NCBI GenBank assembly: GCA_002030045.1
Contig: LQBI01000013.1
Span: forward strand, 186,001 to 250,000
Source: Candidatus Aegiribacteria sp. MLS_C
GTDB taxonomy: Bacteria; Fermentibacterota; Fermentibacteria; Fermentibacterales; JCC-6
Reading direction: 5' to 3'
DNA length: 64,000 bases
Below, in pieces: positions 52,279 through 54,674 of this stretch. Below the pieces are notes generated by a model that worked only from the letters and a program-made list of their open reading frames with translations, did not search any database and had not been told where the DNA came from. The position numbers and the translations under genes were made by a program. Position 1 is the first letter of the stretch, and the number at the start of each line of letters is the position of its first letter.

Positions 52279-52641
52279 CTACTGAGTGATCTCCTCGATT
52301 GTTTCCTCAGATGCTTCCTCGACGGCTTCCTGAGTCTCCTCGATTGTCTCCTCAGCTGCTTCCTCGACGGCTTCCTGAGTCTCCTCGATTGTCTCCTCAG
52401 CTGCTTCCTCGACGGCCTCTACGGCCTCCTCGGCCTGCTCCATGGCTTCCTCGGCATCCTCCTCGGCGGCCTCTACGGCCTCCTCGGCCTGCTCCATGGC
52501 TTCCTCGGCAGCCTCCTCGGCGGCCTCTACGGCCTCCTCGGCGGTCTCGGGGACCTCGGTAGTCTCCTCGGCCTGCTCACCGCATCCGGCGGCGAGAACA
52601 AGCAGGAAAGCGGTCATGATCCCAGTTACAAGATACTTCAC
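52279..52641 (-). CDS. Small Glu/Ala-rich repeat lipoprotein
   Basis: A 120-residue lipoprotein: signal YLVTGIMTAFLLVLAAGC (acylated Cys20), then almost only Glu and Ala. The array is three 18-residue units (AEEAVEAAEEAAEEAMEQ type, residues 34-87) and two 15-residue units (TQEAVEEAAEETIEE type, 88-117), so a long helix or coiled coil. The frame is closed correctly and the GTG start has AAAGGAGT; the longer open frame upstream lacks this. It could be a periplasmic spacer. A TATACT lies upstream at 52677-52672. Confidence 0.85.
   Translation of the reverse strand: MKYLVTGIMTAFLLVLAAGCGEQAEETTEVPETAEEAVEAAEEAAEEAMEQAEEAVEAAEEDAEEAMEQAEEAVEAVEEAAEETIEETQEAVEEAAEETIEETQEAVEEASEETIEEITQ
52291..52542. 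repeat. Tandem coding repeats of 54 and 45 bp
   Basis: Three copies of a 54-bp unit followed by two copies of a 45-bp unit, all in frame in the lipoprotein gene. The adjacent copies are nearly identical in DNA, implying recent duplication by slippage. Confidence 0.8.
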
Positions 52642-52794
52642 GGTAACTCCTTTCGGGATTTCCATTCTGCAAGTATACGAAACGGAAATGAAGAGTTCTC
52701 TCTGTCCGTACACAAGCGTGATTAATATATCAAAGCGGAACTGCCGTCAAGTTCTCGGTGACCCTTCGGGAACACCTGAATGGAGTGATGCGGA

Positions 52795-53859
52795 TCAGTC
52801 CAGACGCAGTCTTGAGATCCTGCCGGTGTTGCTGAAATGGAGTTTTGCGACCCTTCCTAGGACTTCGGGCCCGTACTCCTCCACGAACCTCCTGGCAACG
52901 GCGTCGGTCGAGCTTCCCGAACCCGGCACGGCTTTTATCCCGTACTCCCTGGAAATACGGACCAGGCCGTCCATGTATGCGTCCCGCGCCAGTATGGATG
53001 CCGCCGCAACCGCCGGGTCGGACTCCGCCCTCTCCCTGATCTCCAGAGCGTATTCTCCCGGGGGAAGCAGGCCGGCTATCCTCTTGTCGGGACAGAAGCG
53101 GTCTATCACGACCCTGTCCGGCGGGGGACCCGACTCGAACAACCGGCCTATCGCCCGGGCATGGCAGATCGCGAGCAGATCGAGGCTGTTCCTGCCCTCC
53201 ATCAGGAGATCATTCAGCCGGGAATTGTATTCCTCGGGCATCAGGACAACGGTGGAGATCCCGTCAGGTAACATCCCGCGGATCGCGGAGGCGAGCCTTT
53301 CCAGGGATGCAGCACCGATGAGCTTTGAATCCCGCACGCCGATCCGTCTGAACTCCCGGGTCGAATACCGGTCCACCCTGACCGCCGCCACCACCAGCGG
53401 TCCCATGTAATCGCCCTTCCCTGCCTCATCCGAACCAATCCAGTTTCCTGGCGAGGATGAGACCTCATTCGATCCTATCCTCATATCATGAACGGATGAG
53501 GCGTCATCCGTACTATGCTGTTCTCCGCGCCCGGATGAGGCGTCATCCGTACCAATCCAGATGACGGGCGAAATCCCCGACGGTGCACCGGGGTCATCCG
53601 GATCGGTAGGGAAGAGGGATGGCACTCCCTTCAGAAGCATCCTGATCCTCTCCGCCAGATGCCGGTCCCCTCCGGATGGTACTACGGAGAAGCCCTTCCT
53701 GTCCGAGTAGTAGAAGTTGATACCGCACGCGGCTTCACCGGACCGGAACCGGCAGCGCACCCCGTTTGCGAGGTCCCGCCTGGAGACGGTCCCTATCCCC
53801 TCGCGTTCCAGCTCCTCCTGCGCATGGCGGACCAGCAGGTCCAGGTTCCGGGAGATCAC
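52795..53859 (-). CDS. rnhC: Ribonuclease HIII with internal tandem repeat
   Basis: Cleaves RNA in RNA-DNA hybrids. N-terminal TBP-like substrate-binding domain (RNLDLLVRHAQEELEREGIG, in two parts; FYYSDRKGFSVVPSGG), then the RNase H core: WIGSDEAGKGD (Asp144, Glu145), RDSKLIG, DPAVAAASILARDAY and HFSNTGRI. A 39-residue insertion of three degenerate copies of the active-site segment precedes it. GTG start shares GTGA with the DUF3108 stop. 354 residues against about 310 in usual RnhC. Confidence 0.92.
   Translation of the reverse strand: MISRNLDLLVRHAQEELEREGIGTVSRRDLANGVRCRFRSGEAACGINFYYSDRKGFSVVPSGGDRHLAERIRMLLKGVPSLFPTDPDDPGAPSGISPVIWIGTDDASSGRGEQHSTDDASSVHDMRIGSNEVSSSPGNWIGSDEAGKGDYMGPLVVAAVRVDRYSTREFRRIGVRDSKLIGAASLERLASAIRGMLPDGISTVVLMPEEYNSRLNDLLMEGRNSLDLLAICHARAIGRLFESGPPPDRVVIDRFCPDKRIAGLLPPGEYALEIRERAESDPAVAAASILARDAYMDGLVRISREYGIKAVPGSGSSTDAVARRFVEEYGPEVLGRVAKLHFSNTGRISRLRLD
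53404..53559. repeat. Four 39-bp tandem units around the RNase HIII active site
   Basis: On the coding strand the units are WIGTDDASSGRGE, QHSTDDASSVHDM, RIGSNEVSSSPGN and WIGSDEAGKGDYM, each 13 residues. CGGATGAGGCGTCATCCGTAC recurs exactly with a period of 39 at 53493 and 53532, and is itself a 7-bp hairpin with a GGCG loop. Only the last unit has the full catalytic motif. Confidence 0.85.
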
Positions 53860-54674
53860 CGGCCGTCCAGCGGGTAGACCTCGAACCCCGGGTTCTCGAC
53901 TTCTATCGGAGGCCCTTCGGTGTAGTCCTTCAGGACGCAGACTATCTCGCCTATGACTATGGCGCTGCGCATCAGGACCGGCATGTGACGCTGGTCGTCG
54001 GTGAGCCATATCCAGATCTCACCCTGCTGGTCGAAGAGCCCCTGCGACCGGAGGCCGGGCTGCACCATCACGCAGTCGAACTCCCCGGCGGGTACCCTGA
54101 TACGGTCCCTCTCCACGACGGTTACCTCCAGCGGGTAGTTCTCGTTGTCGATATGGCAGTCGATGAAGTAGGTCTCACCGACCTCCAGGGGAAGCGTACG
54201 GGCGAAGTAGAAGGCGCTGAGAACGTCCAGGGCGTGGGGCGGTATCTCCATTTCCCTGAGCGTGGTGTCCCGCTCCTGGGGATAATGGACCAGACCGGCG
54301 TCCTGGTCGTAGATAACCTCCTCGCTGTAGTGGAAATCACCTTCGTTCAGGTCCTTGAAGAATCTTAGAGTGTGGAACTGGACCATGTCCAGCAGAGCCT
54401 CGTTGATGTCGTTCACCTCGAAGAAGGAACCGAATGCGGGATTCGACCTGGCTGTGGCGGTTATCCTGTAGGCCATGAGACCCTGGTACTGTTCGGGACC
54501 CGTGACAGAGAGTACCGCCGTGCCGGCCTTGATTATTCCGTACTCGACGCTGAACTCCAGTCTCTCCCCCGGGCCGAAGGCACAGTTCTCGACGAACCGA
54601 GGCGAGTAGTCCTCTCCGCCGGTCTCCAGGGAATCGGCCATGAACACGCCCAGTGCGATGAGAAGATGGATCAT
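53856..54674 (-). CDS. DUF3108 domain protein, secreted
   Basis: A 272-residue protein with a short hydrophobic N-terminus (IHLLIALGVFMADS). The FGPGERLEFSVEYGIIKAGTA, split as short runs, and PAGEFDCVMVQP segments match DUF3108, a beta-sheet protein of unknown function common in Gram-negative genomes. It overlaps rnhC by 4 bases. No function can be assigned. Confidence 0.85.
   Translation of the reverse strand: MIHLLIALGVFMADSLETGGEDYSPRFVENCAFGPGERLEFSVEYGIIKAGTAVLSVTGPEQYQGLMAYRITATARSNPAFGSFFEVNDINEALLDMVQFHTLRFFKDLNEGDFHYSEEVIYDQDAGLVHYPQERDTTLREMEIPPHALDVLSAFYFARTLPLEVGETYFIDCHIDNENYPLEVTVVERDRIRVPAGEFDCVMVQPGLRSQGLFDQQGEIWIWLTDDQRHMPVLMRSAIVIGEIVCVLKDYTEGPPIEVENPGFEVYPLDGR

Follow-up and report, generated by a model that had tools for sequence, protein, structure and literature searches.

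Intragenic tandem repeats that arise by slippage grow in frame by multiples of three nucleotides, consist of diverged units and encode a disordered product. The same features are found in rnhC of a Candidatus Aegiribacteria genome, the difference being that the rnhC array extends over the margin of an active-site segment. Among characterized enzymes, Bst-RNase HIII (2d0a) and Ta-RNase H3 (4py5) share with the rnhC product a two-domain layout, a catalytic tetrad and a GKG motif, but here the linker carries 39 extra repeat-derived residues, whereas that of Ta-RNase H3 is 3 residues long, and Bst- and Aae-RNase H3 need domain rearrangement for their domains to bind together (PMC4132731). Rickettsia palindromic elements (PMC10969869) are likewise palindromic, in frame in a housekeeping gene and tolerated by the protein; the present case differs in being a single locus, without dispersed copies, and in having 39-bp tandem units that are like the host gene. 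PARCELs (PMC2996958) are also tandem coding repeats with dyad symmetry, but their units are 25-residue and amphipathic, occur in many ORFs and have no assigned function, whereas the unit found here has 13 residues, is hydrophilic and lies in one enzyme, in an insert rich in Ser, Gly and Asp. Finally, template switching between inverted repeats is known to homogenise their arms, coding genes included, as described for quasipalindrome mutations (PMC8604942, PMC8794818). Perfected inverted-repeat arms in coding DNA are common to those mutations and to rnhC, which differs in its additional 39-bp tandem expansion and in that its history is deduced from a single sequence rather than by tree reconstruction.

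The rnhC product is a predicted RNase HIII

The window, meaning the whole stretch of 64,000 nucleotides that was analyzed, lies on contig C13 of a MAG assigned to Candidatus Aegiribacteria in the Fermentibacterota (2.98 Mb in 35 contigs, 97.65% complete), and its relatives are Candidatus Aegiribacteria and other Fermentibacterota MAGs. The GTG at 53859 is most likely the true start of rnhC (Table 1). An upstream start at 54009, given in the ORF list, was rejected, as the first 50 residues of that frame are the end of the DUF3108 gene in another frame; relatives aligned over these residues have several stops.

Table 1 Positions of rnhC, its repeat units and associated palindromic or inverted sequences in the window.
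Feature	Position	Strand	Basis or remark
rnhC (RNase HIII), 354 aa	52795..53859	minus	GTG start; overlaps the stop of the upstream DUF3108 gene; same VI... start in most congeners
Codons of residues 84-136, predicted disordered	53452..53610	minus	AlphaFold2, pLDDT <50
Further inverted linker copy, ACCGATCCGGATGAC	53593..53607	minus	near reverse complement of GTCATCTGGATTGGT at 53565-53551
Unit U1, WIGTDDASSGRGE, residues 101-113	53559-53521	minus	sequence comparison
Unit U2, QHSTDDASSVHDM, residues 114-126	53520-53482	minus	sequence comparison
Unit U3, RIGSNEVSSSPGN, residues 127-139, further diverged	53481-53443	minus	sequence comparison
Unit U4, catalytic segment WIGSDEAGKGDYM, residues 140-152 (D144, E145, GKG)	53442-53404	minus	alignment; tetrad in PMC4132731
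Exact 21-mer GTACGGATGACGCCTCATCCG, copy 1	53532..53552	minus	7-bp palindrome CGGATGA-CGCC-TCATCCG
Exact 21-mer GTACGGATGACGCCTCATCCG, copy 2	53493..53513	minus	identical palindrome
Third 21-mer copy, 71% identical	53454..53474	minus	imperfect palindrome

The product matched PF01351 with 92 bits (cut-off 25.8). Its match to TIGR00716 reached 127.7 bits, which is below the curated cut-off of 161.2, the threshold at which the database assigns the name, but was still the top score among RNase H models. We read this shortfall as divergence of the phylum, because the fold, the catalytic tetrad and the N-terminal domain are all present. Matches in the PDB were RNase HIII structures, both by sequence (catalytic domain) and by fold, those from Foldseek were RNase HIII and HII, and the predicted model aligned over its full length with 2d0a and 3asm (352 columns). 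D144, E145, D253 and E279 are invariant across an alignment of the gene with 26 relatives and pair by spacing and motif with D78, E79, D180 and E206 of Ta-RNase H3 (PMC4132731), and the GxG motif is found in U4 as G147-K148-G149, beside the D-E pair. An N-terminal TBP-related substrate-binding domain of a helix, four strands and a helix was predicted by AlphaFold2, in a model whose inter-domain orientation is not meaningful. The two profile matches, the PDB matches by sequence and fold and the tetrad bear out the RnhC membership proposed in the sequence-only reading, with which RNase H activity on RNA/DNA hybrids would be expected.

One RNase HII was found in the genome, and RNase HI was looked for there without a match. 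RnhC may serve as the chief RNase HI-like enzyme of the genome. The RNase H complement suggests that the product is probably needed, which speaks against a decaying gene, and the intact tetrad concurs.

Tandem 39-bp units adjoin the catalytic segment

Three units, U1 to U3 (53559-53443), lie immediately upstream of the catalytic segment U4, and the proposal of four 13-residue, 39-bp units at 53559-53404 was borne out. The proposed 7-bp hairpin in the 21-mer is real in both exact copies. That the exact 21-mer recurs at a spacing of precisely 39 bp holds for U1 and U2 only, and not for the third copy; by a rough estimate, fewer than 1e-5 recurrences of a 21-mer with copies within 100 bp would be expected in 64 kb. 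A 10-mer, CTGGATTGGT, recurs at exactly 117 bp, or 3 x 39. Identity of the array at lag 39 (64/117) is the maximum for the whole window (mean 33.7, sd 5.6). Lag 39 ranks second among all periods from 18 to 90 tested on the array, however, and TRF at a score of 30 did not list it, for which reasons we regard only the homology of U1 and U2 as certain, and the copy relationship of U3 and of U4 to the array as probable.

Pairwise comparison gave identities of 26/39 nt for U1 and U3 and 20/39 nt for U1 and U4, with 18/20 in the first 20 nt. U2 and U4 (20/39 nt) and U3 and U4 (16/39 nt) are each weak on their own. U1 and U2 differ at 14 positions, none of them within the 21-nt palindromic core (P ~2e-7 under an even spread), as local homogenisation would give. 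With the peptides given and codons chosen independently, the DNA match has P=0.08 for U1/U4 and P=0.004 for U1/U2. Over the first 20 nt, the top match of each unit among 92 catalytic segments was the U4 of its own gene, only one base ahead of the next, in keeping with an origin that is local and lineage-specific. Descent of U1-U3 from U4 is probable rather than proven, and rests mainly on U1 and the 117-bp match. As an intragenic tandem repeat, with units head-to-tail and in frame, the array is clear for U1-U2, probable for U1-U3 and probable for U4.

The sequence-only reading described the active-site segment itself as present in four units. U4 may be such a site, but U1-U3 keep 3-6 of its 13 residues and lack the D-E and GxG motifs. 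They retain D-D or N-E and are very unlikely active sites, because no GxG stands beside the acidic pair; extra active sites in U1-U3 were rejected on the missing D-E plus GxG signature. A CRISPR-like array, in which palindromic 21-mers would alternate with 18-nt spacers, was also rejected, as the repeat is in frame, has two exact copies only and lies inside an enzyme.

The insert is restricted to one gene and predicted to be disordered

The insert adds 39 residues in frame, and stops interrupt both of the other sense frames. Its GC3 is 0.51, against 0.76-0.79 for the remainder of the gene; the low GC3 and the open frame are fitting for recent or little-constrained coding sequence. In the AlphaFold2 model, which is limited by a small alignment (27 rows), two high-confidence domains are joined by disordered residues 84-136 (pLDDT <50), whereas the disordered segment of a congener (L005) spans only residues 81-92. 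Alignment and model agree with the earlier placement of the insert between the substrate-binding and catalytic domains, and also with the proposed lengthening of the linker, as a matter of structure.

The insert was absent from RnhC of all congeners, members of the rest of the phylum and more distant relatives examined, and aligning RnhC of related genomes for 39-bp units, the check that had been suggested, found none that carry it. Against the 26 relatives it forms a single continuous gap, from the short linker of the congeners to the catalytic strand. When the insert and catalytic segment were used as a query on 42 genomes of the phylum, the matches in relatives began no earlier than the end of the insert and extended over the catalytic segment. 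Across 72 distinct catalytic contexts, from loci retrieved from Fermentibacterota and many other phyla, this gene alone has an upstream 13-mer that agrees with its own catalytic segment at 6/13 residues, the others reaching 4 or fewer. A conserved family trait was rejected, since all relatives examined lack the insert. Such an RNase HIII insert was not found described in the open-access literature, within which the claim of no described case holds.

Occurrence in one strain and one MAG of 35 contigs is what an assembly or sequencing artefact would also give. No two of the three units are identical, however, and together they run in frame over 117 bp without a stop, an outcome hardly expected of a collapsed or misjoined repeat. 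Ordinary assemblers, moreover, can cope with a repeat as short as the 21-mer, and an artefact seems highly improbable.

Alternatively, a longer tether may have been fixed by selection, with more binding arrangements on the hybrid and greater reach or processivity, and with a repeat number adjustable by slippage. The solved RNase H3 linkers, and the domains that must rearrange around the linker in Bst- and Aae-RNase H3 (PMC4132731), make a longer tether plausible as a modifier, while selection on it is putative. Linker length in RNase H3 varies within the phylum, as the alignment indicates, and the possible standing of RnhC as the main RNase HI-like enzyme, next to RNase HII and with RNase HI undetected, would be in line with a selected linker. 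Units that have decayed to 3-6/13 residues and yet stay open in frame could reflect selection too. The insert is found in one species only, however, and drift would account equally well for its unusual GC3 and strongly decayed repeats; we therefore consider a selected linker unlikely.

Inverted copies point to a proposed origin by template switching

U1 and U2 both contain GCCTCATCCG, and its exact reverse complement, CGGATGAGGC, lies in U4. With the inverted copies further upstream (Table 1), one word is present in both orientations several times in the region. The hairpin and the inverted copies, upstream and in U4, point to a mutational origin by template switching, which the earlier reading did not include.

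Folding of a 168-nt stretch gave z-scores of -6.25 (RNA) and -3.73 (DNA), the most extreme among 168-nt windows over 3.8 kb. This strong fold is not evidence for RNA function, because palindromic repeats must fold so; the z-score is accounted for by the repeats alone, and a functional RNA fold is unsupported. An insert that acts as nucleic acid, whether as regulatory hairpins, by letting ribosomes skip from one flank to the other (TGGATTGGT..GGATGA) or by reversible deletion through recombination between these flanks, would agree with these scores and with matching flanks exactly 117 nt apart. We nevertheless hold it to be very unlikely, as any palindromic tandem repeat folds strongly and the insert is not conserved in relatives; ribosome bypass, moreover, is unneeded, because the insert is open in frame. 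It is likewise very unlikely that the 117-nt repeat is a length-variable or skippable cassette between the matching flanks, from which deletion of DNA or bypass by ribosomes would yield RNase HIII forms of differing linker length, so as to adjust the way the enzyme spans RNA/DNA hybrids.

The palindromes, the reading frame and the fold of the 168-nt stretch would also suit a mobile element of the Rickettsia palindromic element kind, which inserts in frame in genes (PMC10969869). A second copy was not found in the genome, in which the exact palindrome occurs only here and the next-best match is a chance-like 19 bp. The 21-mer was absent from the viral contigs searched, phage matches being short and chance-like, and the units resemble the host gene itself. 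A mobile palindromic element is accordingly strongly disfavored, and was rejected for lack of dispersed copies in the genome or viral contigs.

Other tandem arrays are present in the genome

In 464 kb of the genome sampled, other tandem arrays are present, several with hairpins and some without a clear gene. These 464 kb, where coding context was judged by open frames only, yielded no second in-frame array that runs into the edge of a conserved enzyme motif. Adjoining rnhC, a small lipoprotein-like ORF of Glu/Ala repeats (52279-52713, minus strand) contains near-perfect 45-bp and 54-bp tandem arrays (97% and 93% matches), which lie within 1 kb of the rnhC array and look much younger. Elsewhere in the window, at 1645-1990, there is a strong 87-bp periodicity in a 364-codon ORF (minus strand), whose protein repeats give the impression, and only that, of an OstA/LptA-like beta pattern.

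Hairpins in repeat arrays occur several times in the genome. On the same contig, C13, a 72-bp tandem repeat with the hairpin TGGAGTTTGCTCCGCAAACTCCA (L157:11257-11505) has no single long gene across it. Another possible in-frame palindromic repeat is a 15-bp tandem repeat, TCCGGCCGGATGAAT (L169:19054-19138, contig C34), which encodes SGRN repeats in a 299-codon open frame. An array at a contig end (L171:1-1156, contig C5), with the repeat GGCTCCCCCGCGCAGGCGGGGATGGACC, resembles a type I-E-like CRISPR array, and contig C7 opens with about 59 consecutive G and then about 17 C (L170:1-80), probably a sequencing or assembly artefact at the contig end.

Proposed origin and meaning of the insert

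Overall, the insert is likely a lineage-specific, near-neutral in-frame expansion by slippage and template switching that gives a longer flexible linker. As read from this one sequence, replication slippage would have duplicated, in 39-bp steps, a segment that extends into the beginning of the catalytic domain, and template switching between nearby inverted GGATGA/TCATCC copies would have created or homogenised the palindromic cores. Frame, both folds and the intact catalytic copy were kept, as sequence and prediction show, since 39 bp amounts to 13 codons and the inter-domain linker is tolerant. The degenerate units are predicted to serve only as ~39 extra disordered residues, so that a longer flexible linker would connect the substrate-binding N-terminal domain with the catalytic domain. 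Against this expansion by slippage and template switching stands the weak copy relationship of U2 and U3 to U4. The insert is most likely near-neutral, and any effect would be on reach or spacing between the domains on the RNA/DNA hybrid.

The insert is real, lineage-specific and of modest interest. If neutral, it would be only a well-preserved case of insertion tolerance in protein linkers. Lengthening of an inter-domain linker with sequence copied from the margin of an enzyme's own active-site segment is apparently undescribed, and would offer a natural test both of how strongly RNase HIII relies on the spacing of its binding and cutting domains and of slippage with template switching within a housekeeping gene.
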